This document shows, piece by piece, positions 17,086 to 38,816 of a DNA stretch of 46,727 nt. Positions within the stretch are counted from its first letter, which is position 1, and every line of letters begins with the position of its first letter. Source of the DNA: Thermoanaerobaculia bacterium. Lineage in GTDB: Bacteria; Acidobacteriota; Thermoanaerobaculia; JALWYX01. Under the pieces are notes generated by a model. The model made no database searches, was not told the origin of the DNA, and saw nothing but the letters and a program-made list of their open reading frames with translations. A program made the translations under genes and the position numbers. The stretch spans positions 1 through 46,727 of the forward strand of contig JALWYX010000052.1 in NCBI GenBank assembly GCA_027078415.1, given 5' to 3'.

Positions 17086-18390
17086 TTATTCTACTAAAAA
17101 TTCCTTGAGTACAACAGGTACTGTATTGCTCTTGGTTGATTGCAACCGACCGTATGTCACGTTATGCCAGACAACAACCCACTCACCCGCGTTTACCGTG
17201 GACGAAACTAGAGCCGGAAATTGTTCGTGGTCGGTATTTGTATCTGTATCGGCAAAGCTATTCACTGCCAAGCAACCATAATTACTCCAGGTATTTCCAT
17301 CAGCAGATAATAAGATAAATATATCTCTATCGCTTCCTATTGCAGCGCTACAAGTTGTTATGTTATCGTCCGTCTCGAATACAACTCCCCACCTGTTACT
17401 ACCAACATGGCTTCTTACACTATCTATACCAACTGCATTATTCACTTCATACAGAAGCGTAACAGTCGAAAAATTAGCTCCATCATCTGTAGACTTCTTG
17501 TACACTACATCACTCTTATTTACATCACTCCCATGTATATCATGTATCCAAAACACAAATACTTCATCACCTCTCCAAGAGATAGAGATTTGAGGATACG
17601 CCGCAGGTATAGTTGAATTGTAATCCACTAACGGAGAAGCAGCACTCCAACTCGCTCCAGTTCTGCGTGAATACATTATATCCTGGCTATCCCTTACCCA
17701 TGCAGCTAACCAGTTGCCGTTACCGTCTGTTGCTAAAGCTACATCCTCATCTATTGCACTATCGCTGGTTGCATCACTATTTAACGCTGCTGCCGATGAA
17801 CAACTCATCGAACTGCCGCCGTTGTAAGTACAGTCTACGTAAAAGATATCTCTATCAGATCCGTAGTTATTAGAACCTATTGTCTGAATATTTGATTCCC
17901 ATACTATCGTTACGTTGGTAGGCGTTCCAATAGCAACAGCAACCCATGGATTGTTATCATCAGCAGAATCTGACGACATATAGGAAGCTACAAGTTGGGG
18001 TGATGTCCAGCTTATGCTGGTTCCATTGTCAGTTCCTATGGAATACATAATATCAAACTCAGAACCGTTATCTCTTATAAAAACTACAAGCCATTTATGC
18101 TGTCCTGAGAAAATACCTAAATACCTTATAACTGGAGAGTAATACAAAGTTGAGCCACTTCCCATGACAACAGTTCCTGGGTTCCAAGTAGTTCCATTGC
18201 TAGATATAGAGTAGTATATGTGCGTATCATCATGCGCCTCTACCCATTTACCTCCACCATAATCGATAGTAAGTAAATTTGTAGTAGTAACTCCTGTAAT
18301 TGTACTAGGAAGACCAAATCCATGTGGTGGTACAAGAGCGTATATAGAGAAAGAAAATAAAAATATACCAAACGTTAATAAACTTCTCAT
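17086..18390 (-). CDS. Secreted propeller-like protein, copy B
   Basis: 434-residue exported paralogue of copy A, similar along its whole length (for example IDYGGGKWV, YSIGTDNGTS, SWTSP, VASYMSSDSA, ALNSDAT, VVYKKSTDDG, and the tail VPVVLKEFLVE). The longest frame starts at 18411, but I take the ATG at 18390: AAAGGGGG sits 10 bases before it, and from there the 18-residue signal peptide lines up exactly with that of copy A (cleavage before LVPPHGFG). Repeated D-G-x-x-W/F pieces suggest a beta-propeller. Function unknown. It has its own terminator. Confidence 0.75.
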   Translation of the reverse strand: MRSLLTFGIFLFSFSIYALVPPHGFGLPSTITGVTTTNLLTIDYGGGKWVEAHDDTHIYYSISSNGTTWNPGTVVMGSGSTLYYSPVIRYLGIFSGQHKWLVVFIRDNGSEFDIMYSIGTDNGTSISWTSPQLVASYMSSDSADDNNPWVAVAIGTPTNVTIVWESNIQTIGSNNYGSDRDIFYVDCTYNGGSSMSCSSAAALNSDATSDSAIDEDVALATDGNGNWLAAWVRDSQDIMYSRRTGASWSAASPLVDYNSTIPAAYPQISISWRGDEVFVFWIHDIHGSDVNKSDVVYKKSTDDGANFSTVTLLYEVNNAVGIDSVRSHVGSNRWGVVFETDDNITTCSAAIGSDRDIFILLSADGNTWSNYGCLAVNSFADTDTNTDHEQFPALVSSTVNAGEWVVVWHNVTYGRLQSTKSNTVPVVLKEFLVE

Positions 18391-18594
18391 ATATACGACC
18401 CCCTTTAACATAACTCTTTTTACCCAATTATGACAAAACTACATAAACATTACAACATTCCGTATCTCTACATATCATTCTTACCGGATTACTAAATAGT
18501 TCCTTACCGTACTTATCTGTGTTTTAAATAGAGTAAAAATTAAAGGTAGTCCAACAAAAAAGTTAGTTTCCTTAAAACTTCTGTAATTTTAAAA

Positions 18595-18637: not shown

Positions 18638-21600
18638 CTATATCTTTTCTCTTTTTTCTCTCCACTCCTCTTTTGAAAGAATCTTTATTACAAATCCTGA
18701 ACGTTCAATCTTTCTATTAACAGCTTTAACTTTTTCAACTAAATCGTTAAACTTTTTCTCAGCTTTAGAGAACTCTTTTTTGTAAAAGTCGAGCTGAGAA
18801 AGCTGAGTTTTTGTAGGTCTACCCAGGTACGCTATAACTCCCATATAAAGCTCACCTATCTTCTCTCTGAGTTTTTCCTCTCCAGAAAGCCACCCAGCAG
18901 GATGTGTAGCTACAAGTTCTTTTCTAAGAGCAAGGGCTTCTTCCTTGATTTTTGCAACCTGTTTCAACTTCTTTTTCTTAAGAATATCAGCAGCCTGATC
19001 TTCTATATACTTTAGAGTATCCGCGAGGTACCCCAGATCCTCGAGTAGATAGTAAAGTTCAAGAACAGTTTGTTGCTGCAGCTTCCTATCGCTCTCAGAG
19101 TGTTTATTACGAGGGTCTTTTACCAAACTAATTTTCCCCTCGTAGCTCTTATTTCCTTTTACCAGCTTAAAGGTATATTCTCCTTCCATCAGATAGGGTC
19201 CTATCATAGCTGGAAGTAACGAATTTCCCGGAGGTACCTTAGGAGGAGGCAAACGCATAGGGAACAATACCCTTACTATTCCTCTATTTTTGGGAACAGG
19301 AAGTGAGATAACCAAATTACCTGAGGAATCGTATACCTCCATTTTTAGAGATCCAAACAGATGCCGTTTTTTCTGAAAGAAATGGATAAATGCTGCATCT
19401 GGAGGGTTATCTCCCAAAAACTCCTCGTCAGCACCACCCCATCCATCTAGTGGAGTCATTAAATACTGTACACCGTCTCTGGATGGTAAAATTACAACTT
19501 CTTCTGATAATAGCTCCGGAGTCAAAGCCCTAAGAGGAGATAGATCGTCTATTATATAAACCCCTCTACCGTGAGTACCTACAACAAGGTCACCTCTAGG
19601 ATGAATAACCATGTGTCTCACAGAAACTTTCGGTATTTTTTTAAATCTAGCCCAACTTTCACCACCGTCTATAGAGATATATAGACCGAACTCTGTACCC
19701 AGAAAAAGCAACTTTTCGTTAACTGGATCTTCCTTTACCACGTATGCGTATCCTTCCACACCCTCTGTAGGTAATTTTCTCCAACTTTTACCCATATCGT
19801 CGGTAACAAATAGATAGGTGTTCATATCTCCTGTTCTGTGACCGTCAAAGGTTACGTAAGCTCGCTCTCTTTTATGATTACTACTTTCTATAAAAGAGAC
19901 CCATGTGTTTTTAGGAACACCACTTTTGGGTGTGACTTCTATCCACTCTTTCCCTCCATTCGTAGTAACGTGTACGAGTCCATCATCGCTTCCTACCCAT
20001 ATAACGTTACTGTCTATTGGCGATTCACTTATAGAGTATATAGTTGTATGATTTTCGGCAGTTGTGTTATCTACAGTCATACCCCCTGACAAATGTTGTT
20101 TCTGCTTCTCAGGATCATTGGTAGTAAGGTCTGGAGAGATCTTTTCCCACGATTCGCCGTTATCTAGCGACCTAAAAAGAAACTGAGCTCCAACATACAG
20201 TGTCCCACTAGGTCCAAAAAGAAAAGGGGTGTTCCAGTTGAAACGAAGTTTCTCACCCGTAGCAAGGTGAGGAGTTATAGATCTAAGTTCACCACTTGTC
20301 ATGTCCACTCTAACAAGTTTCCCTCCTTGATACTCAGAGAACACCATTTTAGAATCTTTAGGGTGAGCGAAGCTCCAAAAGCCATCGCCGAAGCCAACAG
20401 TTTCCCAATGTTTATTTAATACTCCTCTAAAACCCAATTTCATAGAAGGTCCTCTCCACGAACCGTTATCTTGCAACCCTACGTAGACGTTGTAGGGAAA
20501 CTCATTGTCAACCCCTACTCTGTAAACTTGGGAAATAGGTAAGTTGTTCAAATGCCGCCAACTATCACCCCTATCAAACGACTCATAAACTCCTCCATCA
20601 GTTCCCAGTATCAAATGCTTAGGATTTTTAGGATTTATCCATAAAGCATGATGATCTGGATGCACCGTGCCTCCATAGCCAAAAGGACCTGCAAACGACT
20701 CTCCACCATCTCTGCTAATAGTCAGAGAAATACCAGGTTTATAAACTATATTGTAATCCACAGGATCTACGATTAAACGTGCAAAGTAAAACGGTCTAAC
20801 TCTAATATTAAAACCTTCGTTAACTTTTACAAAACTATTACCAAAATCATCGGATCTATAAAGAGCTGTCCCCTTATCATCTTCTAAAAGAACGTAAACT
20901 CTACTGGGCCTAGATGGGGCTACAGCAACAGCTATTCTACCCCAAGGTTTCTCAGGAAAACCGTTTTTTAACAAAGTCCAGTTTTTACCACCATCTAGAC
21001 TCTTATACAAACCACTGCCTGGTCCCCCAGACTTAAAGAACCAAGGCCACCTTCTAAACTCCCACATTCCAACGTACAATATTTCAGGCTCTTGTGGATC
21101 TATAGCCATATCGGAACATCCAGTTTTTTGATCCACGTATAAAATCTTTTTCCAACTTTTACCGCCATCTACGGTCTTATACACTCCTCTTTCCTCATTA
21201 TCATTCCACAGGTGCCCTAAGGCACATACGTACACAATCTTGCTATTTTCGGGATGAACTATAATTTTGGCTATCCTTTCTGTATCTTCAAGCCCCATAA
21301 ACTTCCAACTCTTCCCACCATCGGTACTCTTGTACACACCTTTCCCTACCGAAACGCTGTTTCTAGTCCAAGGTTCCCCTGTTCCTACCCAAACAGTTTC
21401 ACTATCGTTAGGATCTATAGCGATAGCACCAATAGACTGGGGATACTTATCAAAGATAGGGCTAAACGTTATCCCTCCATCTTTCGATTTCCACAAACCG
21501 CCGCTAGCAGATCCTACATATATAACAACTGGATTAGAAGGTATAGCTGCAAGATCTGAAACCCTACCACCCATAACAGCAGGTCCTATAGAACGTGCTG

Positions 21601-21682
21601 AGATATTACCAAACACCCAACTTCCATAATCGGCAAAAAGCGTAAGCGGCAAAAGTAAAAAAGCAAAAACTACCCTCACCAT
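18638..21682 (-). CDS. Exported VPS10/sortilin-type beta-propeller protein
   Basis: 1014-residue exported protein with a signal peptide (1-17). About 20-690 hold many Asp-box blades (S-K-D-G-G, S-T-D-G-G-K-S-W, T-V-D-G-G-K-S-W, S-L-D-G-G-K-N-W, S-I-D-G-G-E-S-W), as in the Sortilin_N/VPS10 family of Acidobacteriota and Bacteroidota, with the usual GPAVMGGRVSDLA opening and V-G-T-H-G-R-G-V-Y-I-I-D-D-L end. A beta-rich linker and a helical Lys-rich C-terminus (about 860-1014) follow. These proteins are often annotated as glycosyl hydrolases, but no catalytic residues are assignable; binding is more likely. It starts 15 bases after the LolA-like gene with an AGGAGG ribosome-binding site. Confidence 0.85.
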   Translation of the reverse strand: MVRVVFAFLLLPLTLFADYGSWVFGNISARSIGPAVMGGRVSDLAAIPSNPVVIYVGSASGGLWKSKDGGITFSPIFDKYPQSIGAIAIDPNDSETVWVGTGEPWTRNSVSVGKGVYKSTDGGKSWKFMGLEDTERIAKIIVHPENSKIVYVCALGHLWNDNEERGVYKTVDGGKSWKKILYVDQKTGCSDMAIDPQEPEILYVGMWEFRRWPWFFKSGGPGSGLYKSLDGGKNWTLLKNGFPEKPWGRIAVAVAPSRPSRVYVLLEDDKGTALYRSDDFGNSFVKVNEGFNIRVRPFYFARLIVDPVDYNIVYKPGISLTISRDGGESFAGPFGYGGTVHPDHHALWINPKNPKHLILGTDGGVYESFDRGDSWRHLNNLPISQVYRVGVDNEFPYNVYVGLQDNGSWRGPSMKLGFRGVLNKHWETVGFGDGFWSFAHPKDSKMVFSEYQGGKLVRVDMTSGELRSITPHLATGEKLRFNWNTPFLFGPSGTLYVGAQFLFRSLDNGESWEKISPDLTTNDPEKQKQHLSGGMTVDNTTAENHTTIYSISESPIDSNVIWVGSDDGLVHVTTNGGKEWIEVTPKSGVPKNTWVSFIESSNHKRERAYVTFDGHRTGDMNTYLFVTDDMGKSWRKLPTEGVEGYAYVVKEDPVNEKLLFLGTEFGLYISIDGGESWARFKKIPKVSVRHMVIHPRGDLVVGTHGRGVYIIDDLSPLRALTPELLSEEVVILPSRDGVQYLMTPLDGWGGADEEFLGDNPPDAAFIHFFQKKRHLFGSLKMEVYDSSGNLVISLPVPKNRGIVRVLFPMRLPPPKVPPGNSLLPAMIGPYLMEGEYTFKLVKGNKSYEGKISLVKDPRNKHSESDRKLQQQTVLELYYLLEDLGYLADTLKYIEDQAADILKKKKLKQVAKIKEEALALRKELVATHPAGWLSGEEKLREKIGELYMGVIAYLGRPTKTQLSQLDFYKKEFSKAEKKFNDLVEKVKAVNRKIERSGFVIKILSKEEWREKREKI

Positions 21683-21697
21683 ATTACCTCCTTATAT

Positions 21698-22441
21698 CTA
21701 GTTAGCGGTTTTTTCCACATTCTCAGGAAAGGCGAAGATTTTATCATCTATTGTAGGATTAATCTTGTATTCATCTATCTCTATAACAGAAGCGTTCTTT
21801 CCCCTCTTTTCTTCAACATAAAAGTTAAGCATAAGATCACCTACTTTTTTATAATCACCCAAAATAACGGTAGATTTATGAGTATTGCCATCTGGTAACT
21901 TTATAGAAACCTCGTTTTTCAAAAGTAGAAAACTATCTTTATCTATAAAATAAACGATTTCATTGCCGCTCGGTTTTATAAGTTTTATTTTATAAACGGG
22001 AGTTCCTTCTACCTCATCTTCTCCTAGAAACTCTACCTTGTTACCGTGATTTTTGTAGTTTACAAGACCATCGTAAAAAAAATCCTGCTCTTTCATAACC
22101 GCCACCTGATGCGGAGGCACCTTTTCAGGTTTGGCGTCATCCCCCAAAAAAGGCATATAAAACCAACCAGTTGAACCATCGAAAGCTTGAATTCCTACTT
22201 TTCCTTGAACAGAAAACTCTACCCTAAATTTGTTGGGTCTTTTAGTTGTAATCTTAACAGGGTACTCCACCTCACCTTGTTTTAACTTACCTGTCATTAC
22301 AATAGCGTTAACTTTTGCGATATTTTCTTTACCACCAACAGCATTAGCAAACTTATCTATTATCTGATCCACGTCCATCTCACTAGCATGCAGAGGGTAT
22401 AACAAAAAAGTAAAAATAACTACCATAGCAAACTTTCTCAT
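21698..22441 (-). CDS. LolA-like periplasmic outer-membrane lipoprotein-sorting protein
   Basis: 247-residue exported protein with a signal peptide (MRKFAMVVIFTFLLYPLHA) and a LolA/LolB-like half-barrel: a helix with VDQIIDKFANAVGG, then alternating strands (MTGKLKQGEVEYPVKITTK, RPNKFRVEFS, G-S-T-G-W-F-Y), a Y-K-I-K-L segment and I-D-E-Y-K-I-N-P near the end. Such proteins bind lipids or lipoproteins in the periplasm. The longest frame starts 19 codons upstream at 22498, but TTTGGAGG just before the ATG at 22441 and the signal peptide decide for this start. A 97-base gap to the glycosyltransferase gene may hold a promoter. It lies directly before the VPS10 gene. Confidence 0.75.
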   Translation of the reverse strand: MRKFAMVVIFTFLLYPLHASEMDVDQIIDKFANAVGGKENIAKVNAIVMTGKLKQGEVEYPVKITTKRPNKFRVEFSVQGKVGIQAFDGSTGWFYMPFLGDDAKPEKVPPHQVAVMKEQDFFYDGLVNYKNHGNKVEFLGEDEVEGTPVYKIKLIKPSGNEIVYFIDKDSFLLLKNEVSIKLPDGNTHKSTVILGDYKKVGDLMLNFYVEEKRGKNASVIEIDEYKINPTIDDKIFAFPENVEKTAN

Positions 22442-22538
22442 CTTGCACCTCCAAATATTTTTTATACTAATTACGATTCCTATCGTCTTTTGTTTCAAAA
22501 TCTGTATCCAATTTTATTACCACTATTAAGCTAGATTC

Positions 22539-23393
22539 CTAAAAAATAAACCTAGCTCCCAACCTTTTCAACTGGACAACTTCATAGTAACCCAACGGGT
22601 TACGCTCTTTACTTAAAGGTATATATAGCAAGCGAAGTTTTTCTACCATACTTTTCCACAAGGACAAACTCCCCGTTTTCAGAAGTAATATAACGCTCCA
22701 AAGAACAAAGTTGCTAACAACATATACAGATGGAAAATGTCTCCACGCTACTTGTATCCTATTAAGACTGTTTAAGAACCAATATCGCTTATCACGTTTA
22801 TGCTCTCGTCTATGAACAACTACAGACTTTGAAGTGTAGAACATCGAATAGTTATTCTTAAAAAATCTAAAACTTAAGTCAACTTCTTCCTGATATACTA
22901 CAAATCTTTCCAAAAAGCCTCCGCTAGCAAGAAATTTATTTCTATCTACAACTGCACCCATGGTGAAAAAATAGGGAGTCAAGGCAAGCTCTCTATCTAC
23001 TATAGATTTATCAGAGGAAGGAAGCTCTGAAAAAATTGGCTTACCGGAAGGTAATACACTCTTGGCCGTAGCAGCCACAGCGTAAGAGGAACTTTCCAAA
23101 ATAGAGACAAGCTCTTTAGCAGTAGAAGAGGAGTCCATAACAGCATCATCGTCCAAGAAAAAGAGGTAATCCCCTTTAGCAACTTTAGCTCCCAAATTTC
23201 TACCAGCCGCTGCACCTATATTTGTAGAAAGATTAACTAACTTATCTACACCATCAACCTTAATAGGAAGCGAAGAATTGTTAACTACTACAATTTCTTT
23301 TCTCCCTTCAAGCTCTTGTCTCTTAAAAGAATCTATACTATGCTTTATACTATCTCTTCCCAACGTCACAAATACAAGAGAAAAAGAGGCCAT
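22539..23393 (-). CDS. Family-2 glycosyltransferase
   Basis: 284-residue GT-A-fold transferase that moves a sugar from a nucleotide donor. Motifs: FSLVFVTLGRDS at the start, VVVNNSS, the nucleotide-binding GAAAGRNLG near 62-70, the metal-binding LDDD near 75-79, and VVYQEEVDLSFRF, the usual acceptor-side E-D-x-D-L-x-x-R region in variant form. It resembles rhamnosyltransferases. A hydrophobic stretch (about 225-245) may anchor it. I take the ATG at 23393; an in-frame TTG precedes it. It begins 4 bases after the pseudokinase stop, so it belongs to the same run. The acceptor is not known; the product of the KS genes upstream is one possibility. Confidence 0.82.
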   Translation of the reverse strand: MASFSLVFVTLGRDSIKHSIDSFKRQELEGRKEIVVVNNSSLPIKVDGVDKLVNLSTNIGAAAGRNLGAKVAKGDYLFFLDDDAVMDSSSTAKELVSILESSSYAVAATAKSVLPSGKPIFSELPSSDKSIVDRELALTPYFFTMGAVVDRNKFLASGGFLERFVVYQEEVDLSFRFFKNNYSMFYTSKSVVVHRREHKRDKRYWFLNSLNRIQVAWRHFPSVYVVSNFVLWSVILLLKTGSLSLWKSMVEKLRLLYIPLSKERNPLGYYEVVQLKRLGARFIF

Positions 23394-23397
23394 CAAG

Positions 23398-24300
23398 CTA
23401 GAAAATAACGATATTCTCTAGAGATTCTAAACGTTTAGCAGGATCCTTTTCCACCATACGTTCCAACATCTCCTTACTATTATTCCCTAGAGTCCACTTA
23501 CCATTAGGAAAAATTTCTCCTGTACTCCAATACCAAAAAACCATACCTAGAGAATATATATCGGCAAGGCTAGAATAACTACCCATTCTTGTTTCGGGAG
23601 CCATAAATGGGGAACCGCTCTTTACAGGAGGAAAGTCTCGCACTCCAACGTAAAGTAAAGGAGCTAATCTACTAGAGAGAAAATGTAAAGTACCATCTTT
23701 TGAAATAACAAGTTCAGTATCACTAAACCCTCCTAAAAAATATCCCATTTTATGAAGTTGACCTAAAGGAAATACAATAGCTCTCCACAAATTGGCAAAA
23801 TAGTTACTCCCCAGCTTTCTAGCCCTTATAAAAGATGTAACAGGTATACCATCAATAAACCTTTCAACAACGCTTATTCTCCCATCAAAAATTATCTTAG
23901 CTTTTTGGGGAAATACAGGAGATATAGGAGAATAGTAACGTTCTTTTTCCATACCGATCGAATCGGTATAATCCACATTACAAATAGTCATAAGGTAATA
24001 TTCTCCATCCCTAGCAACTTGATAACGTTCCCCCCAAGGAAGGAAATCCACTCTTCTTACGACAGAGTACCCTAAAATTTCTTTCCCTTCGGTAGCTGTT
24101 ATGGCTTTAAGTATATCTTTAGAAAAAATCTGAAATTTTTCAAAGTTATCTGCTCGTTCATGCCATCTTAGGAGTTTTGCAATCTCTTTACCTAACTCAG
24201 GATTGGAGTTATATATCTCTTGCACAGCTTTTTCCTTGTAACCAGGAGGTTTATCCAATATTTCTAAAAAAACCCTTTTCAGTTCATCCCAATCATTCAT
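23398..24300 (-). CDS. Protein-kinase-like pseudokinase
   Basis: 300-residue cytoplasmic protein with the Ser/Thr kinase fold but without catalytic residues. Counted from the longer start at 24312: an N-terminal helical segment (about 6-58, DWDELKRVFLEILDK to LLRWHERADNF) as in Acidobacteriota kinases; the glycine loop is replaced (FLPWGERYQV, 90-99); the ATP-binding Lys is lost (YLMTI, 106-110); the HRD loop reads GGFSDTELV (194-202); DFG reads FLSS (211-214). M-A-P-E (237-240) and D-I-Y-S-L-G (251-256) remain, so the fold is clear. I prefer the ATG at 24300, 9 bases after GGAG and overlapping the sigma stop (ATGA). It likely binds the neighbouring kinase or sigma factor. Confidence 0.75.
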   Translation of the reverse strand: MNDWDELKRVFLEILDKPPGYKEKAVQEIYNSNPELGKEIAKLLRWHERADNFEKFQIFSKDILKAITATEGKEILGYSVVRRVDFLPWGERYQVARDGEYYLMTICNVDYTDSIGMEKERYYSPISPVFPQKAKIIFDGRISVVERFIDGIPVTSFIRARKLGSNYFANLWRAIVFPLGQLHKMGYFLGGFSDTELVISKDGTLHFLSSRLAPLLYVGVRDFPPVKSGSPFMAPETRMGSYSSLADIYSLGMVFWYWSTGEIFPNGKWTLGNNSKEMLERMVEKDPAKRLESLENIVIF

Positions 24301-24826
24301 CTCTTTCTCCATCCAGCTCTTTTAAAAGCCAAGCCTTTGCAAAAGCCCATTCTCGCTTTACGGTAGTAGGAGAAATTCCCACTACTTCTGCTATTTCGCT
24401 AATACTAAACCCTCCAAAAACCTTAAGTTCAACTATACGTAGCAACCTAGGATCAGATCTACCCAATTTCTCAAGTATCTCATTTAGATGAATAACATCA
24501 AGATTATTACTTTCTACATAGTCAAGTATCTCTTCAACTAACGGCATATCAGGAATACCTTTTCCCCTCTTAGAAGCTTTTTTGTAGCGTGCGTAGTCTA
24601 CCAAAATCCTCCTCATAGCCCTTACCGCAGCTGCTACAACTGAACGTTTATCCTTCCAAGGTTTACGTTCCTGCTTAGCCAACCTTATATAAGTTTCACT
24701 GACCAACATCGTAGGTGTTATAGTCTTACTTTTAAACTCTTTACAAAGAACGCTCTTAGCTAAAGAGTAAATCTCGTCGTAGATCTCGTCTATATAACGA
24801 TCCAGTTGATCTTTAGGAGTACTCAC
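24293..24826 (-). CDS. ECF-like RNA polymerase sigma factor (kinase-linked type)
   Basis: 177-residue sigma-70-family protein of the ECF-like group (PF07638/TIGR02999 type) that directs RNA polymerase to a small promoter set. Region 2 covers about 8-85 (LDRYIDEIYDEIYSLAKSVL, then S-E-T-Y-I-R-L and RRILVDYARYKKASKRG). Region 4 covers about 115-172, with the helix-turn-helix FSISEIAEVVGISPTTVKRE and W-x-x-A-K-A-W-L. No anti-sigma gene is present. It starts with GTG on a GTGA overlap with the kinase gene and overlaps the pseudokinase start, so kinase, sigma and pseudokinase are translated together. Control by phosphorylation from the adjacent kinase is inferred from the known pairing of such sigma factors with Ser/Thr kinases. 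Confidence 0.87.
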   Translation of the reverse strand: MSTPKDQLDRYIDEIYDEIYSLAKSVLCKEFKSKTITPTMLVSETYIRLAKQERKPWKDKRSVVAAAVRAMRRILVDYARYKKASKRGKGIPDMPLVEEILDYVESNNLDVIHLNEILEKLGRSDPRLLRIVELKVFGGFSISEIAEVVGISPTTVKREWAFAKAWLLKELDGERDE

Positions 24827-25707
24827 AATTTTATTATTTTATACAACTCTTTTTTGGTCAAATAATCCTTTTTACCAAAACTTTTGAGCGTTTCTGCAAC
24901 GTACCTACTAACTTTATCGTCAGCCAAATAAGCAACTGTAAGAAGCAAAGAATACTGGTCACTAGATCTAGAAGGAGGGACTCCTTTTTTAACCCACGGA
25001 GCAGAAAAATCTGGGTTAAAAGGCCAGTAAGCTGGAAGCCTTTCATGTTCCCAGCTAAGGGTTCCTAAATCTATAAGAACCAATCTGTCTTTCGATAATA
25101 TAAAATTTGAAGGGGATACGTCTCCTAAAATTACTCCCGCGTCATGAAATTTAAAAACAGTTTCTATTACCATCTTTAAAACCTCTTCTCCCATCCCTCT
25201 TTTCAATACCGTACCCTCAACAAATTCCCTAACTATGTAGGGAATCTCCCCTTTATGCATACCCCAGCAGTAGAACTTTGGAACAGGAAAATCTTGCAAT
25301 TGAACGTAAAATCTAGCTTCACGTTCGAAGAAACGTCTAACTACCTTTGCTTCTAGAAAAGGAACCGGAAGCTTTATAATAGCTTGAGATCCACGATCGG
25401 ATCGCCCCTTATAAAGCAGCCCATGTCCTCCCGAAGAGAACAATTCAACAGCTTTAAAATCACCAAAACGCACACCTATATAATCTTTTGAGACCTCTAT
25501 GTAAGATAGAGTTTCCAGCAACTGCGAACTAGAAAAATTTACCTTCATAGAGAAAATACCGCTATCACTGTTACTCTTTTCCAACAGGCTTTTCAGCTCT
25601 TTCCACAACAACGAGTCTTTCTCTCTTATTTTCTCTAAAAAAAGATTCCTCTCCTCTTTATCCAGTGCAACAATTTTCAGAAAAATTTCTTTTACTTTGC
25701 TAACCAC
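24823..25707 (-). CDS. Ser/Thr protein-kinase-family protein
   Basis: 294-residue cytoplasmic kinase with no membrane helix. An N-terminal helical segment (about 3-47) is shared in style with the pseudokinase. The kinase domain (about 80-290) has a glycine loop SSGGHG (91-96), ATP Lys K112 in AIIKLP, the catalytic loop LGDVSPSNF with D196 and N201 (H and R of HRD are replaced), and the metal Asp D213 in IDLG in place of DFG. The APE region is degenerate. Catalysis is plausible but atypical. Start GTG with AAGG close by, 7 bases after the KS-like gene; its end overlaps the sigma gene. Its likely target is the sigma factor. Confidence 0.8.
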   Translation of the reverse strand: MVSKVKEIFLKIVALDKEERNLFLEKIREKDSLLWKELKSLLEKSNSDSGIFSMKVNFSSSQLLETLSYIEVSKDYIGVRFGDFKAVELFSSGGHGLLYKGRSDRGSQAIIKLPVPFLEAKVVRRFFEREARFYVQLQDFPVPKFYCWGMHKGEIPYIVREFVEGTVLKRGMGEEVLKMVIETVFKFHDAGVILGDVSPSNFILSKDRLVLIDLGTLSWEHERLPAYWPFNPDFSAPWVKKGVPPSRSSDQYSLLLTVAYLADDKVSRYVAETLKSFGKKDYLTKKELYKIIKL

Positions 25708-25714
25708 CTTGCAA

Positions 25715-26887
25715 TTAACATCTCCTTACAATCAAGGTCACGAAGCTTCCTACTGGAGAACAAGCATTAACCATAACTATTTTATTATTTTCAAGGTAAG
25801 CTTCATTTGGACTAAATCCAATTTCAGGATCTTCTTCTACAAATTTTTTAGGTTTTGCAATTTTACCTCCCTCTAACAATACAAGCAAGGCGGCAAGATC
25901 GGTAGCTCCATATTCACCAATTATTCCCTTTGGCGCGATTACAGTAGGTAAGCGACCATTAAAAAAAGTATTAAGAGCCTTAGCTTCAAGAAGATCTCCT
26001 TTTATACTTCCAGAGGCTGCACTGAGTATAAGATCGATATCTTTTGTAGTAACTCCAGCCATTTGACAAGCACGTTTCATACAGTTGACAAAAGATCTAT
26101 AATTTTCTCCCCACGCCCACTCTTTAGACGTGGGATCAAAAGCTCTAGCCCATCCTAAAACTTTACCTATTGGAAAGTAGTTAAATCTTCTGATTGCTTC
26201 TCCATTTGCCAGTAGGAGAAATGTACTTCCTTCCGAGGGGATAAAACCTTTACGATACCTACAAAACGGTGCAGAGTGGCTTGATAGAGCTCTAAAGTAA
26301 ATTAAAGAGTTAACCACAGTATCGGTGATCTCTTCTGTGCCCCCTACAATTACAACATTGTTATCACCGCGAAATATCTCACGCGCTCCTTCTATAAAAG
26401 CGGCCAAATAACTAGCAGTGCTTTGAGTTACCGCAGTTTGGTTACCATACAACTTCATTTTCATTGAAATCCTAGCAGCGGAAGTATTAGCAACACTTTC
26501 AGAAAAATGAAAAGGTGAAACATCTAAAGGAGAGCGGGTAACTATAGTATTTACAACTTTTTCAGCAAAATCCACAGGTCCAAATGAAGTGCCTAGTACA
26601 ACACTAGTATTACTAGGAATTTCCACTTTCTTGCTTAAACTACTTGCTACATAAATAGCAAATTGAGACAATCTTCCCATACGACGCGCTTCACGCTTAG
26701 GAAGTAGCTCAGAAGAAGAGTCGAAAATAAAAGCCTTAGCTTTTTTATTTAAGAAAACTGGCGTTTTAGAAAAATATTTTTCCTCTTCATCGTATCCGCC
26801 GCTTTCCAACAAGATACGCATATCATCCAGGCTAAAAGCTCCTGGATGAACAGACTCCCCTTTTACAATAAAAATCTCTTCTTTCAT
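25715..26887 (-). CDS. Non-catalytic ketosynthase-like subunit (chain-length-factor-like)
   Basis: 390-residue thiolase-fold protein of the beta-ketoacyl synthase family that has lost all three catalytic positions. Lined up with the intact enzyme encoded just upstream, the nucleophile Cys is S159 (TQSTAS), the first His is A290 (LSAASGS) and the second His is E325 (APKGIIGE). Framework pieces remain: VVLGTSFGPV, a GG-T-E-E-I turn, S-E-G-S, and A-C-S-P-V-G-S-F near the C-terminus. This pattern and the pairing match the chain-length factor (KS-beta) of type II polyketide and aryl-polyene systems, where it forms a heterodimer with the active KS and sets chain length. ATGA overlap with the KS gene supports 1:1 synthesis. 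Confidence 0.78.
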   Translation of the reverse strand: MKEEIFIVKGESVHPGAFSLDDMRILLESGGYDEEEKYFSKTPVFLNKKAKAFIFDSSSELLPKREARRMGRLSQFAIYVASSLSKKVEIPSNTSVVLGTSFGPVDFAEKVVNTIVTRSPLDVSPFHFSESVANTSAARISMKMKLYGNQTAVTQSTASYLAAFIEGAREIFRGDNNVVIVGGTEEITDTVVNSLIYFRALSSHSAPFCRYRKGFIPSEGSTFLLLANGEAIRRFNYFPIGKVLGWARAFDPTSKEWAWGENYRSFVNCMKRACQMAGVTTKDIDLILSAASGSIKGDLLEAKALNTFFNGRLPTVIAPKGIIGEYGATDLAALLVLLEGGKIAKPKKFVEEDPEIGFSPNEAYLENNKIVMVNACSPVGSFVTLIVRRC

Positions 26888-28053
26888 CTCTCAAAAACTA
26901 TTGCAGTATTAGATCCTCCAAAAGCTAAATTTATAACAAGAACACTTTCTACCTCTTCTACAAGAGGTTCACCTATTACTAGCTTACCTTCTATCTCAGG
27001 ATCTAAAGGTACCGAATCGATATATGTAGGAGGTATGATAGAATCGGTAATCGTTTTTACCGCTAACACCGACTCTATACCCCCAGCACCTCCTAACAGA
27101 TGTCCTATATAAACTTTAGGAGCAAAAAGAGGGATCTCTTTTGCACTATCACCCAAAGATCCGTATATTCCTCTCCATTCTGATATATCGTTAAGTTTCG
27201 TTCCAGTAGCGTGAAGATTTATATGATCGATAGTCTCCCTTCCCGACATCTCTAGAGCTTTAGATATAGCGTTTCTTATACCTTCCCCCTGCGGGTGAGG
27301 AGCTGTTACATGATAACCGTCACTAGTAGATACACCCGCAGTTACCCACGCTAAGACTTTCTTATTAAAAATTTCTACTCTTTCTTCGCTCTCTAGAACA
27401 AGAGCTCCCGCTCCTTCTCCCAAAGACATACCGTTACGTAAACCAGTAAAAGGTTTACATCCATCGGGATCTACAGCTCTTAGAGAGTTAAACCCCGCGT
27501 AAGTGAGCTCACACAGAGAATCAACTCCTCCAGCTATGGCTATCTCTATCTCTCCTTCTAAAATGGCGTTTCTAGCTTCTATAATGGCTTGAGCGCTTGA
27601 GGTGCAAGCTGTAGAATAAGTAACTACTGGTCCCTCTATGGAGAAGTGTCTAGCAAGAGAATCCGCTGCTGAATTATACATCTGGTAAGAGAAAGGTTTA
27701 AGGGAAGTTTTACTCTTTAATACCTTTTTATACACCTGCTCGACTTCTCTCATTCCACCGCTACTGCACCCCCAAAACACTCCTGCTTTTAGCAGATCTT
27801 TCGATTCCACCTGTGCACAATGAAACGCTTCTTCGGCTGATACAACGGACCAAAACGACGCTAACGTCAGAAAACACCTGTTTTTATCTAGAGGAACTTC
27901 TGCACCAGTATCGGTTCTATGCCCCTTAGGGAAAAAACGCTTTAATTTCTTTATTCCACTTTTCCCCTCTAGAACAGCTTCCCATAAAGGTTTTACACCT
28001 TTACCGAAACAACTCACGGCACCTATACCTGTAACTGCTACTCTACCTTTCAC
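26884..28053 (-). CDS. Beta-ketoacyl synthase (KS II/FabF type)
   Basis: 389-residue condensing enzyme that extends an acyl chain on acyl carrier protein by decarboxylative condensation. The triad is complete: C150 in YSTACTSSAQ, H281 in NLHATGTK, H318 in KVYIGHLLGG. Other FabF marks are RVAVTGIGAVS at the start, PFTGLRNGMSLGEGA, and NLAFGGSN near the end. The longest frame begins at 28119 inside the ligase gene, but the protein fold starts with the GTG at 28053, which overlaps the ligase end by 11 bases. It is followed by a KS-like partner without catalytic residues. The fabF of primary fatty-acid synthesis usually sits with acpP/fabG; neither is here, which favours a specialised pathway. 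Confidence 0.88.
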   Translation of the reverse strand: MKGRVAVTGIGAVSCFGKGVKPLWEAVLEGKSGIKKLKRFFPKGHRTDTGAEVPLDKNRCFLTLASFWSVVSAEEAFHCAQVESKDLLKAGVFWGCSSGGMREVEQVYKKVLKSKTSLKPFSYQMYNSAADSLARHFSIEGPVVTYSTACTSSAQAIIEARNAILEGEIEIAIAGGVDSLCELTYAGFNSLRAVDPDGCKPFTGLRNGMSLGEGAGALVLESEERVEIFNKKVLAWVTAGVSTSDGYHVTAPHPQGEGIRNAISKALEMSGRETIDHINLHATGTKLNDISEWRGIYGSLGDSAKEIPLFAPKVYIGHLLGGAGGIESVLAVKTITDSIIPPTYIDSVPLDPEIEGKLVIGEPLVEEVESVLVINLAFGGSNTAIVFER

Positions 28054-29383
28054 TAGCCCATTCCAAAAGCTTACTACGATCCAATTTACCTCTACTAGAA
28101 TAAGGAAGAAAATCGACAAAAATAAGTTTTCTATTTTTTATATCCGCGGGAAGATTATCTCTCTTGAATTTTTTATCTACAACCAAAAAAACAACCAAAA
28201 CTCTATTACCAGAACCTTTCTCAACACCTATGCACGCAGCATCATTTACACCCTCTACAGATCTTAATTTTTCCTCAACAAGAGGAGCATAAATTTTCTT
28301 TCCTCCTACCTCAATAACTTCGAGACTTCTGCCCAAAATCTTTATCCTTCCGCTGTCTGTAAAAGATATATAGTCGTTTAAAATTATCTCTTTAGGCGGC
28401 TTGTATCTCTTTTCTCCCAAAAAGGCTCCAAATATAGATCCGGATGAAACCACAGCCCTACCACTATTGTCCATACTCACCTTTACTCCAGGTAACGCAA
28501 ACCCTACCGTTCCTTCACTATCTTTCTCCCAAGGACGAGGTTCGAAAGATATAGCAGCGGTTTCAGTAGAACCGTATAATTGATGAATGTACCTACCCGT
28601 CTTTTCGTAAAATTGAGAACTGTACTTTGGATCCAAATGCCCCCCTGCAGATATTACCAACCTAACAGAAGGTAAAGAAAATTCGTAATTGGCTAATGCT
28701 TTGACCAAAGGAGGACTCAAAAGAACTACAGAAGGGGAATTTTTCTTTATCTCGTTTATTATCTGAATAGGAACAAAACTATCTGTCAAAGTGAGAGAGT
28801 TACCTAAAAAGGTCAAAGCTAAAACACCGTTATCGTATCCGTATGAGTGTGATATAGGAACCGGTATAAATGCAGAATCATCCTCGGTAAGACTCATGCC
28901 CTCAGAAATAGACCTTATTATACTAAGCAGAGTATTTTCACTTAAACATACAGCCCGCGGCAATCCTGTCGATCCCGAAGTAAGTTTTACCAATACAGTC
29001 TCTTTAGGAAAAGGAGACTCTTCTACATCTATCGCTTCTAAGGATAACGGAACGGTGGAAAAAGAAGTGTTACCACCCTTTACTAGTACATACCTAATGC
29101 CCAATTTAGCAGCGAGCGAACTTTGAGATTCAAACGGCAACGATTTATCTATCAAAACCGGTACTTTACCTACCTTCCAAAGAGCTAAGTTAGCAACTAC
29201 AAAGTAACTACTATTACCTACAGCTATGCCAACAAGACTGGCATCGAGTCCTGCTAGTTCTTTGGAGAAATTCTCCACTTTACCAACCAACTCTTCAAAG
29301 GTAAAAGAAACTGTTCTACAATTTACGGCTTTTTTTCTAACCCGTTTATCAACCCACGAATAAAAAAGATCAAGTAGCTTCAT
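28043..29383 (-). CDS. Short AMP-forming acyl/aryl ligase (ANL superfamily)
   Basis: 446-residue adenylate-forming ligase that activates a carboxylic acid as acyl-AMP and passes it to CoA or a carrier protein. Motifs: P-loop-like TSGSTGLPRA (135-144), VPISHSYGY (175-183, the usual H-x-x-G region), LYGSTETA (269-276), FTDSGR in place of YxTGD, and the C-terminal catalytic Lys K433 in SSRGKLDRSK. It is shorter than the 500-600 residues of acetyl- or long-chain-CoA synthetases and closer to the ligases found in polyene and polyketide clusters. Acyl specificity cannot be read. It starts 4 bases after trxB without its own Shine-Dalgarno sequence and overlaps the KS gene. Confidence 0.85.
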   Translation of the reverse strand: MKLLDLFYSWVDKRVRKKAVNCRTVSFTFEELVGKVENFSKELAGLDASLVGIAVGNSSYFVVANLALWKVGKVPVLIDKSLPFESQSSLAAKLGIRYVLVKGGNTSFSTVPLSLEAIDVEESPFPKETVLVKLTSGSTGLPRAVCLSENTLLSIIRSISEGMSLTEDDSAFIPVPISHSYGYDNGVLALTFLGNSLTLTDSFVPIQIINEIKKNSPSVVLLSPPLVKALANYEFSLPSVRLVISAGGHLDPKYSSQFYEKTGRYIHQLYGSTETAAISFEPRPWEKDSEGTVGFALPGVKVSMDNSGRAVVSSGSIFGAFLGEKRYKPPKEIILNDYISFTDSGRIKILGRSLEVIEVGGKKIYAPLVEEKLRSVEGVNDAACIGVEKGSGNRVLVVFLVVDKKFKRDNLPADIKNRKLIFVDFLPYSSRGKLDRSKLLEWASER

Positions 29384-29387
29384 ATTT

Positions 29388-30320
29388 TTATTGCCTACTC
29401 TCCAAAAACCTCTCAGCGTCTATAGCTGCTTTACACCCCATACCAGCAGCTGTAACGGCTTGTCTATAAATATAATCTACTACATCACCTGCAGCAAAAA
29501 CTCCTTCAACACTAGTATAAGTATAGGGATGATTCACTTTTATATACCCCTTATCATCCATATCCAACTGTCCCCTAAAAATAGAAGTATTTGGTAGATG
29601 ACCTATCGCTATAAACACCCCCTGAGTAGAAAATATATACTCCTTATCTTCCACCAAATTTTTGATTTTTACAGCTTCCACCCCTTTTTCCCTGGTTCCT
29701 ATTATCTCCGTCACCACACTGCTCCATATCCATTCTATCTTAGGATTATTAAACGCTCGTTTTTGAAGTATCTTAGATGCTCTCAACTTATCCCTTCTAT
29801 GTACAATAGTAACTTTAGGAGAAAACTTAGTAAGGTATATAGCCTCTTCTAAAGCGGAGTCTCCACCACCTACAACAACTAACTCCTTACCTTTAAAGAA
29901 AAACCCATCGCAGGTTGCACACATAGAAACCCCAAAACCCAATAACTCCTCCTCGCCCGGAACACCTAACTTCTTAGCAGCAGCACCCGTTGCAATAATA
30001 ACTGACTTTGCGTATACTTCTCTATCTTTATCGGTAATAATTGTAAAGGGATAATCATTAAAATTAACTTTTACCACTTCTTCAAATACAATTCTAGTTC
30101 CGAAACGTTCAGCCTGTTTTTTCATATTATTCATAAGATCAGGACCCAATATACCCTCGGGAAAACCGGGATAGTTTTCAACATCGGTGGTTATGGCAAG
30201 CTGTCCACCAGGCTGAACCCCTTCAAAAAGCAAAGGTGCAAGATCTGCACGCGCAGCATATATAGCAGCCGTATATCCGGCAGGACCTGACCCTATAATA
30301 ACAACGTTCTCTGTACCCAT
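29388..30320 (-). CDS. trxB: Thioredoxin reductase
   Basis: 310-residue FAD/NADPH flavoenzyme that reduces thioredoxin in the cytoplasm. FAD-binding GSGPAGYTAAIYAARA is at the N-terminus, ENYPGFPEGI follows, the redox motif is CATC in SMCATCDGFFF (about 132-142), the NADPH-binding GGGDSALEEA is present, and FAAGDVVDYIYRQAVTAAG is near the end. The longest frame starts 20 codons earlier at 30380. I chose the ATG at 30320 because GAGGTGTTGG precedes it and the flavin fold begins there. It is the first gene of the run that continues into the ligase and KS genes 4 bases on. No thioredoxin gene is in the window. Confidence 0.94.
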   Translation of the reverse strand: MGTENVVIIGSGPAGYTAAIYAARADLAPLLFEGVQPGGQLAITTDVENYPGFPEGILGPDLMNNMKKQAERFGTRIVFEEVVKVNFNDYPFTIITDKDREVYAKSVIIATGAAAKKLGVPGEEELLGFGVSMCATCDGFFFKGKELVVVGGGDSALEEAIYLTKFSPKVTIVHRRDKLRASKILQKRAFNNPKIEWIWSSVVTEIIGTREKGVEAVKIKNLVEDKEYIFSTQGVFIAIGHLPNTSIFRGQLDMDDKGYIKVNHPYTYTSVEGVFAAGDVVDYIYRQAVTAAGMGCKAAIDAERFLESRQ

Positions 30321-30670
30321 TTCCAACACCTCTTCTAAAAAATTGAATAGAATAACACCTGATACATTAAAATCTAGCATATATTACACTAACTAGCTAT
30401 CCAAATTTTCAAAAATAAAATCTGATGTGCAAAAAAACTAAAAATTAAACAGAAGGACAAACAAAAGATTACCTGACAGCGAAAAACTCAAAATATTACC
30501 ACTTATAGAAAAATAGCAAATAAGATCCAACCTTACCAACTTTGATGATTCAGTAAGTATAAGATGAGTTTGAATTAGATAATTGATACCCCAATACAAA
30601 TAACTTATAATAGGGAAAACATATTAAAAGATTATATATAAATACCAAGATGTAAGAGAGGAGGTTTGTG
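30321..30670. other. Divergent intergenic region between trxB and ferritin
   Basis: About 350 A+T-rich bases that must carry the promoters of the long - strand run and of the ferritin gene. A clear promoter is seen only for ferritin. No Fur-box-like 19-base palindrome was recognised, and no gene or repeat. Confidence 0.6.
30583..30611 (+). promoter_or_regulatory. Sigma-70-type promoter of the ferritin gene
   Basis: TTGATA (30583-30588, 5 of 6), a 17-base spacer and a perfect TATAAT (30606-30611). The expected transcript start near 30618 gives a leader of about 53 bases ending in the GAGAGGAGG ribosome-binding site. It is the best promoter match noticed in the window. Confidence 0.72.
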
Positions 30671-35798: not shown

Positions 35799-38700
35799 CT
35801 AACAGATAACTCTACTAAAATCCCACCTCTTTTTCATTTTTTCCAAAAGTTCATCGTAAGGAATGGGAGGAGAAAAGAAAAATCCTTGTCCACACCTTAT
35901 ACCAAGTCTAGAAACAACTTTTAGCTGGTTATAACCTTCCACCCCTTCGGCGACTACCTCTAATCTTAATACATTTGCCATTCTTACAATAGCGTTTACT
36001 ATTTTGTGTGAAAGAGAATCTTTATCTATATTTCGTATAAAAGCTTGATCTATCTTCAGCACAGAAAATGGGTATTTCATCAGGTAGGATAGAGAGGAGT
36101 ACCCGGTTCCAAAATCATCCAGGTAAAGTTTTATTCCCATCTGATTGAAGTTGTCCAAGTTCTCGAATGATACAAAATCATCTACCAAAACTGCCTGCTC
36201 TGTTACTTCCAAGCGCAGAAATTTAGCACTAATAGAATAATCTTCTAAACATTTTTCAACAAAATTACCAAAAGAGATATCACGTAATTGATCGGGATGA
36301 ACATTAACGCTTATAAATATATTATTATCTCTAAGTATACTGCTAAGCTCTTTGATACTCTTACACGCCTTTTCCAAAACTATATTTCCCAATTTTTCTA
36401 CCATATTACACCGTTCAACTAAAGGAACAAATATAGACGGGGATACAACACCTCTTTTAGGGTGTTTCCATCTTGTTAAAGCTTCAAATCCTTCTATAGA
36501 TCCCGTTGAAATATTTACAATAGGTTGGAAATACAATACTATCTGCTCCAATGCTAAAAGAGGATCTACCAACACCTTTTCCAAATCTTTTTCCAATACA
36601 AATTTCTCCTCTACCTCTGCTCTCATTTCTGGACTGAAAAAGACAAAGCCTTTTTTTGAATATCCAGGATTTTTCTTAGCTATATGCAAAGCTATCTCTG
36701 CGTCAGTCAAAGCTATCTCTCCAGAGACAGGCTGTTCTGCAACAAAAATTCCTATGTTAACGGACAATGAAAACTCGCGCTCTCCAACTTTAAAAGACTT
36801 ATCTAGAGCATTCTTTATAAGGGTAACAAACCGCGTCACATCCTCTCTTTTATTACAAGTTACAAGAAAAGCGAATCTATCTCCAGCGATTCTAGCTACT
36901 ATATCGTTGGGTGAAGTTATATCCTTGAATCTGGAAGCCACTTCGCGGAGAATTATATCTCCAGTTTCATAGCCCAATGTCTCTGTAATTAAGTGAAAAC
37001 CCACTATATCAACAACCAGAATAGCCAACAGTTTACCTACAGGAGGATTTTGCAACCTACTACCTGTTTTAGCTACAAAATAGATTCTATTGTATAGCCC
37101 TGTTAACTGATCAAAATAGGCACCTTTTGCAATCTCTCGCTGAAAACTCTTTAACATAGTTATATCTGTTATCGATCCTGCCAATATCTTAGGCTCACCA
37201 TTATCAGCCCAAAAAGCAACTCCTCTGCATAAAATATCTCGATAAGCACCAACCCTGTGTTTCATACGAATCTCACAAACTAGATTACTACTCCTACCAG
37301 CCAAATGCTTATCTATCAAACGTATAAATCTATGTCTGTCGTCAGGATGGACAAGAGACAACCAGTTATCGAAAGTAGGTTCAAAAGCTTTATTATCGTA
37401 TCCTAACATTGTATACCAACGTTCAGAAAGGAAAAGAACATCATTTTGAAGATCCCATTCCCATATTCCATCATTAGCACCTTTAACAACCATAGCGTAA
37501 CGGTCTTTTGCTCTCCTTAATTCGGTCAGATTGTGAAACTTCTCTATAGCGTTTGAAACGAGAGATGCTATAACAACAACACTTTCTAGGCTATTTTGCG
37601 ACAGATGAGAATCTATCTCTTCATGGCAAAGTAACAATACTCCCCACATCTTACCCCTAGCATGAATAGGAACCAATACAACATTACATTCATCATCTTC
37701 TCTTACACTACCATCTTGTATATAGGCTTTAGTATAAGGGTCCTTAAGTTCATCTACGATAACAGATAGAGTATCCGGTAACGCTCCGATACCATCCTTA
37801 GCCCAGAAACTGTGTCTTTGCAAAACTCTACTCTGAGCAAAGTACCTATATATACCTACAAAAGAAATATTTAACGTTTCAGCTACTAAAGAGCATATAT
37901 AATCGCTTTTTTCCTCCCATTTCTCTCTTTCCATAAGAACTTTAGCTACAGAAGCGACGGAAGATATTGTTTTATTACGTTTCTCTAGCTCTATACTACT
38001 TCTTTTGTACATCATAACCAGTTCTTCCACTACAACCGCTATAAGAGAAACAACAAGTATAGCAGATACCTCATTTCTAGCCTCCGTTAATCCAAACCTA
38101 AAAACAGAAGTGGATAAAGGAACAACAATTGATAACACCACAATAAGCAGATCTACAGGAGTTAACAAGAATGCTGCAAGAATTACGGGAAACGCCATTA
38201 TATCTAAAACAATTTCAACTTTAACATACCACGCACCAACCATAGCTAAAGTAAAGGAATAAACCAATATCCTATACAACAAAGGTGGTGAGTAACTAGA
38301 AGGCACATAGTCTTTTCCTTTTAATAGGTAATAAGCCAAAACAACTATTAAAAAACCCAATATTCCCTCAGATATAAGACCTCTAAGATGTGCAGGAGAC
38401 GTAACGTATGCAACGTTTATAATCCCTATTAGTAGATAAAAGATAATATTAAAAATATGACCTACGAAAATAGATCCTGCACCCAACATAAAGTGGTAAT
38501 TAGTTAAAAATCCTGCCAGAGCTCCCATAAAAGGGTGCACTAGTATCGATACGGTTTCGTAAGGGTTAAAATACCCTTGAACAAACTGAATTAAAGAGTT
38601 ACCAAAAGTTCCAAAAAATCCTACTATAGCACCTGCTTGCCATCCCCATACCATTCCCCAAATAACGGGAACAACCATTTGAAAAGCCAAATTGGCTTCG

Positions 38701-38816
38701 GGGAGCATAGGATTTGGTATAAAAGTAGAGAGATTACCTACAATCCAGTAAGCTAATATACCAAAAAGAACTACTTTTGAATTTCCTGTCTCCTCTTGAG
38801 AAAAAAAACCGGTCAC
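35799..38816 (-). CDS. Membrane GAF-PAS-GGDEF-EAL signalling protein
   Basis: 1005-residue inner-membrane protein that probably hydrolyses cyclic di-GMP. Order: six to eight membrane helices (about 13-270), a short coiled coil, GAF (about 300-425), PAS (about 437-555, with W-E-W-D-L and VHPDDR), GGDEF (about 565-725) and EAL (about 750-995). The GGDEF site reads AGDRF (644-648), so cyclase activity is unlikely. The EAL domain is intact: EAL (778-780), S-V-N-V-H, E-V-T-E-Q, LDDFGTGYSS, K-I-D-Q and E-G-V-E. The membrane part resembles an ECF-transporter S component more than known MASE domains. Start GTG without a clear ribosome-binding site; it heads the phosphohexomutase/phospholipid operon. 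Confidence 0.87.
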   Translation of the reverse strand: MTGFFSQEETGNSKVVLFGILAYWIVGNLSTFIPNPMLPEANLAFQMVVPVIWGMVWGWQAGAIVGFFGTFGNSLIQFVQGYFNPYETVSILVHPFMGALAGFLTNYHFMLGAGSIFVGHIFNIIFYLLIGIINVAYVTSPAHLRGLISEGILGFLIVVLAYYLLKGKDYVPSSYSPPLLYRILVYSFTLAMVGAWYVKVEIVLDIMAFPVILAAFLLTPVDLLIVVLSIVVPLSTSVFRFGLTEARNEVSAILVVSLIAVVVEELVMMYKRSSIELEKRNKTISSVASVAKVLMEREKWEEKSDYICSLVAETLNISFVGIYRYFAQSRVLQRHSFWAKDGIGALPDTLSVIVDELKDPYTKAYIQDGSVREDDECNVVLVPIHARGKMWGVLLLCHEEIDSHLSQNSLESVVVIASLVSNAIEKFHNLTELRRAKDRYAMVVKGANDGIWEWDLQNDVLFLSERWYTMLGYDNKAFEPTFDNWLSLVHPDDRHRFIRLIDKHLAGRSSNLVCEIRMKHRVGAYRDILCRGVAFWADNGEPKILAGSITDITMLKSFQREIAKGAYFDQLTGLYNRIYFVAKTGSRLQNPPVGKLLAILVVDIVGFHLITETLGYETGDIILREVASRFKDITSPNDIVARIAGDRFAFLVTCNKREDVTRFVTLIKNALDKSFKVGEREFSLSVNIGIFVAEQPVSGEIALTDAEIALHIAKKNPGYSKKGFVFFSPEMRAEVEEKFVLEKDLEKVLVDPLLALEQIVLYFQPIVNISTGSIEGFEALTRWKHPKRGVVSPSIFVPLVERCNMVEKLGNIVLEKACKSIKELSSILRDNNIFISVNVHPDQLRDISFGNFVEKCLEDYSISAKFLRLEVTEQAVLVDDFVSFENLDNFNQMGIKLYLDDFGTGYSSLSYLMKYPFSVLKIDQAFIRNIDKDSLSHKIVNAIVRMANVLRLEVVAEGVEGYNQLKVVSRLGIRCGQGFFFSPPIPYDELLEKMKKRWDFSRVIC

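Follow-up and report, generated by a model that had tools for sequence, protein, structure and literature searches.

A reduced ligase–ketosynthase–CLF module in one operon with a candidate ECF43-like phospho-switch in a Thermoanaerobaculia genome

The analysed window (46,727 nucleotides) is a whole contig of a metagenome-assembled genome (1.96 Mb, 97% complete) of the class Thermoanaerobaculia, whose nearest kin among the genomes compared belong to the same class only, with no second member of its order. Its minus strand carries a directon in which seven genes follow each other in the order LIG, KS, CLF, KIN, ECF, PSK, and GT2, preceded by a thioredoxin reductase and followed by a LolA-like gene:

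29388..30380, minus strand: thioredoxin-disulfide reductase (TIGR01292, 417.8 bits, above cut-off)
28043..29383, minus strand: LIG, AMP-forming acyl ligase, 446 aa (AMP-binding, PF00501, 132 bits)
26884..28053, minus strand: KS, intact ketosynthase, 389 aa (N- and C-terminal domains, PF00109/PF02801, 128.6 + 80.4 bits)
25715..26887, minus strand: CLF, full-length KS partner, 390 aa (N- and C-terminal KS domains, 62 + 32 bits)
24823..25707, minus strand: KIN, truncated Ser/Thr kinase (weak RIO/Bud32/Pkinase match)
24293..24826, minus strand: ECF sigma factor (TIGR02999, 153 bits vs. a cut-off of 126; Sigma70_ECF, 135 bits)
23398..24300, minus strand: PSK, pseudokinase of the same Ser/Thr kinase (STK) family (14.7 bits to Pkinase)
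22539..23396, minus strand: GT2 glycosyltransferase, 285 aa (PF00535, 45 bits)
21698..22498, minus strand: LolA-like periplasmic protein (PF17131, 38.2 bits)

All seven ORFs from LIG to GT2 were recovered at these coordinates in an ORF check, which agreed with the family searches and with the first-pass annotation in reading them as a seven-gene operon, the overlaps and gaps being at most 11 bases with refined starts (LIG/KS − 11, KS/CLF − 4, CLF/KIN + 7, KIN/ECF − 4, ECF/PSK − 8, PSK/GT2 + 1). The likeliest start of KS is GTG 28053, giving an 11-bp overlap with the end of LIG, and for PSK we took ATG 24300, with an 8-bp overlap with ECF (the first ATG is at 24312). Overlaps of 4–11 bp suggest translational coupling. 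As the thioredoxin reductase gene, the first of the directon, lies only 4 bp upstream of LIG, the directon begins earlier than LIG; the gene's membership in the unit is uncertain, and no such gene was seen beside the ligase in the neighbourhoods of the two most similar modules described below. At the other end, the LolA-like gene is loosely attached to the operon, 40 bp after GT2 or 97 bp if its likelier start is used. It is followed after 15 bp by a sortilin/BNR-repeat protein (1014 aa, 18638-21682) and further on by a weak BNR-like secreted protein (17086-18411). Promoter and terminator scans of the operon gave nothing above chance.

The ketosynthase pair had been described as an intact KS with a catalytically dead partner, and the catalytic columns bear this out, because the Cys-His-Lys-His set is kept completely in KS and is replaced by Thr/Ala/Lys/Glu in CLF (Cys to Thr, His to Ala, Lys kept, His to Glu). 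The window thus holds the KS-CLF pair of a type II polyketide synthase (PKS), a neighbouring KS with all four residues and a homologous dead partner, but the dedicated acyl carrier protein (ACP) of the minimal PKS was not found: the only ACP detectable in the host genome lies between fabG and fabF on another contig (C57). Family searches found no ACP, ketoreductase (KR), dehydratase (DH), or second KS within the directon, and the host genome has one FabZ and seven short-chain dehydrogenases. Because it has no ACP, KR, or DH of its own, the module, if working, must share fatty-acid parts. A precedent for such sharing is cispentacin synthesis, in which the fatty-acid synthesis (FAS) enzyme FabI works on a dedicated ACP (PMC10698177). 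LIG retains the catalytic Lys of the GKLDR motif and probably loads an ACP.

The closest counterparts of the enzymes were found in two other Thermoanaerobaculia loci, L037 (JAUIDB010000031) and L061 (JAIOJS010000488), in which ligase, KS, and CLF have the same order and orientation with tight spacing, and in which ACP, KR, DH, and exporter were likewise undetected nearby. Their ligases are by far the best relatives of LIG (~249 bits, the remaining ligases reaching at most 160), with 35–36% identity, a common HSYG.DNG motif, and the same C-terminal deletion, which leaves a shortened C-terminal domain. KS is 43% and CLF 33–38% identical to their counterparts. In a FastTree phylogeny of KS and CLF sequences, rooted with the FabF of the host genome, all CLFs including that of the window formed a single clade with support 1.0, while the window KS was joined to the KS of the two loci (support 0.81). 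The two modules differ from that of the window in having malQ after CLF, where the window has KIN-ECF-PSK-GT2, and their genes share only 33–43% identity with those of the window. Ligase, KS, and CLF, which the first-pass annotation had read as one module, are therefore conserved as a unit in related genomes and form a module of the class Thermoanaerobaculia. The further view of that annotation, that no described cluster goes without ACP, KR, and DH in this way, was not supported, both because these two loci have the same stripped module and because ACP, KS, partner, and ligase suffice in published cispentacin-like minimal clusters (PMC10698177). A role in the biotin pathway (bioB and bioA adjoin the module in L037) was dropped, as L061 has an M48-like peptidase in that place, as read from the sequence.

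Most of the remaining relatives have fuller KS-CLF clusters; the named records among the relatives as a whole are Acidobacteriota and mostly Thermoanaerobaculia. In type A, the ligase is divergent from an FAD enzyme, ACP, a FabZ-like protein, KS, CLF, and GT2; in type B, a deacetylase and the ligase are divergent from ACP, KS, CLF, and GT2, with varying additional sets of KR, MMPL, FabZ-like protein, FAD enzyme, and LolA. Examples of both (L043 for type A, L046 for type B) share with the window homologous KS, CLF, and ligase and a GT2 adjoining CLF, but differ in having their own ACP, a FabZ-like protein, and FAD/halogenase-like enzymes, a divergent ligase, and a GT2 of another kind; the type B example also has KR, MMPL, LolA, and a deacetylase. 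The GT2 beside CLF in relatives is of a polyprenyl-phosphate type to which the window GT2 has no detectable homology, and the LolA of some relative clusters belongs to another family (PF03548). The loci L043:5137-14955, L038:5263-11592, and similar ones form a conserved gp7-type cluster, in which the genes for a CmlS-like FAD/halogenase-family enzyme, ACP, FabZ-like protein, KS, CLF, and GT2 run divergently from the ligase gene. The type B clusters L046:5911-19990, L054, L062, and L071, with sets of deacetylase, KR, MMPL, DUF2062, FAD enzyme, and LolA, resemble lipid-linked polyene clusters and have a full-length CLF. A genome-wide scan found the CLF pattern confined to Acidobacteriota records. 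The KS-CLF pair itself is not new, since acidobacterial KS-CLFs are already present in a published catalogue (PMC10132072).

Between CLF and GT2, the sigma factor gene is flanked by two kinase-like genes. The ECF family models scored were TIGR02999 and PF07638, and the likeness to ECF43 rests on a motif and on the neighbouring kinase: region sigma2.2 reads TPTM (uncharged) where canonical factors have the acidic DAED, the Thr at the third position (Thr39 in the window ECF) is kept in 39 of 41 relatives, and a Hanks-type kinase is adjacent, with KIN overlapping ECF by 4 bp. In the ECF43 factors EcfP and EcfK (T51), it is the Thr at this same sigma2.2 position that is phosphorylated (PMC13147305, PMC8999054). 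ECF factors of the TIGR02999 type are much expanded in relatives, reaching at least 30 matches per genome. KIN has an N-terminal helical domain and a kinase domain without a transmembrane or TPR part, and both domains align to STKs of ~900 aa (best match within the class, E 1e−15). Of the catalytic residues it retains Lys (VAIK), Asp and Asn (HRD), and Asp (DFG), but other motif positions are atypical (LGD for HRD, APW for APE), so that it may not be active. In PSK, all four catalytic residues are gone (Asn replaces Lys, Gly and Glu replace the HRD Asp and Asn, and Ser replaces the DFG Asp), while the C-lobe motifs APE and DIYSLG are retained and residues 7–267 align to an ECF-adjacent STK (E 3e−10). 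The AlphaFold model of PSK, at a pLDDT of 41, was of too low quality to be used, and confidence was high solely for three helices at the N-terminus. PSK fills the slot directly after ECF, which is that of the cognate kinase in the pairs of the class: 31 of 42 sampled class loci with an ECF of the same family have a same-family kinase directly downstream. These ECF-linked kinases are mostly 800–1000 aa long and have the N-terminal helical domain common to KIN and PSK, which may be a sigma-docking domain.

The first-pass annotation had placed the enzymes under phospho-switch control, an idea that gains support from the ECF43-type phospho-activated sigma factors as precedent. We infer that a phospho-switch is the best reading of ECF and the kinases, because TPTM replaces DAED, the Thr is kept in nearly all relatives, and EcfK and EcfP carry their phospho-residue there. 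The window resembles the known systems of ECF43 factors with Hanks kinases (EcfP/PknT, EcfK/PknS) in its adjacent Ser/Thr kinases, the replaced acidic motif, and the Thr at the phospho-position, but differs in that a soluble truncated kinase and a pseudokinase flank the sigma gene, and in that this gene lies inside a biosynthetic operon.

Taken as a whole, we consider the chances about evenly balanced that the locus encodes a reduced KS-CLF acyl or polyketide module of Thermoanaerobaculia under an ECF43-like phospho-switch. From its family, LIG would activate a carboxylic acid and load it onto an ACP, and a predicted KS/CLF heterodimer, with its intact KS residues and dead partner, would condense the loaded acid with malonyl-ACP. 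Given the gene content of the host, the module would borrow the single FAS ACP, as well as FabG and FabZ if reduction occurs, and GT2 and perhaps the LolA-like protein might modify or carry the product. The sigma factor, lacking the acidic residues that RNA polymerase requires, would be inactive until KIN phosphorylates Thr39, whereas PSK, dead and in the cognate-kinase slot, would dock or restrain the sigma factor or KIN; once activated, the sigma factor would probably transcribe its own operon, giving feed-forward control. A more specific version, in which the dead PSK holds the sigma factor, the separate live KIN frees and activates it, and the KS-CLF module runs entirely on the fatty-acid ACP, seems to us rather unlikely.

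Conservation of all seven genes in relatives had been put forward as the test of their being one unit. This test failed, as the KIN-ECF-PSK trio was next to the KS pair in none of 32 relative GTDB loci, 24 of which extend 3 kb or more beyond CLF. The arrangement of all seven genes is thus known from a single genome. Kinases near the KS pair in two loci were judged background because they are ordinary (an STK in L065) or weak (a 19-bit match in L072) and lie in genomes rich in such kinases. The regulators could instead be a separate ECF-kinase pair that landed in the biosynthetic directon, or reads through with it, without controlling the enzymes. The abundance and varied contexts of ECF-STK pairs across the class speak for this possible, if doubtful, explanation, as does the absence of any such pair beside the KS pair in relatives; on the other hand, the trio sits in the middle of the operon with overlaps and a 7-bp gap, and the reduced host genome has just two matches to the window ECF (E ≤ 1e−6), the window's own included. 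Operon structure favours one unit, and the comparison gives no confirmation.

For the product, the parallel with aryl polyene clusters drawn in the first-pass annotation stood in part. Those clusters (ApeO-ApeC etc.) share with the window a ligase, a KS-CLF pair, and a LolA-like neighbour, and some relatives of the KS pair sit with ACP, KR, FabZ-like protein, MMPL, and LolA; however, the ApeC of aryl polyene clusters is a half-size CLF (PMC8358021) with a single thiolase fold, whereas the window CLF is full-length (390 aa; PRK06147, 20.9 bits vs. a cut-off of 342), and the aryl polyene markers are absent, with neither the two dedicated ACPs, KR, DH, and second KS nor ApeR and ApeQ. Membership in this family was rejected on CLF size and the missing parts (PMC8358021). 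An aryl-polyene-like lipid pigment made with FabG/FabZ reduction, an MMPL exporter encoded elsewhere in the genome, and the LolA-like protein would accord with the type B relatives, where an FAD enzyme also lies by the KS pair, and with an MMPL homologue on contig C14 of the host (159 bits), but besides the CLF length and the absent cluster genes, it has against it that the type B FAD enzyme has no good homologue in the host genome (best E 2e−5), and we regard it as improbable. Equally hard to favour is the synthesis of a single short, unreduced product after the fashion of the cispentacin and coronafacic acid enzymes, with LIG loading a small acid that KS and its dead partner condense and cyclise. 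Such systems (AmcB/F/G/H) likewise combine ligase, KS, and dead partner; the published minimal type needs no KR or DH beyond ACP, KS, partner, and ligase, and FabI is borrowed in cispentacin synthesis (PMC10698177). In the window, however, there is no ACP gene, and the matches to the AmcF-type KS and AmcH-type ligase models are weak (185.1 and 70.1 bits vs. curated cut-offs of 325 and 370), while CLF matched AmcF, with no listing against the partner (AmcG) model.

The reading as a reduced module under an ECF43-like phospho-switch joins parts that are known elsewhere; their combination with a dead kinase copy is new and seen in one genome only. In the known cases, phospho-activated ECF factors govern a type VI secretion system or polymyxin resistance (PMC13147305, PMC8999054), and one wired into a biosynthetic operon with PSK would offer a small testable system for bacterial pseudokinase function, while a KS-CLF module without its own ACP would test whether such pairs run on the fatty-acid ACP alone. 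Elsewhere in the window, positions 35799-38816 encode a 1005-aa GGDEF-EAL protein that also has PAS and GAF domains and an N-terminal part that weakly matches the S component of a riboflavin transporter.
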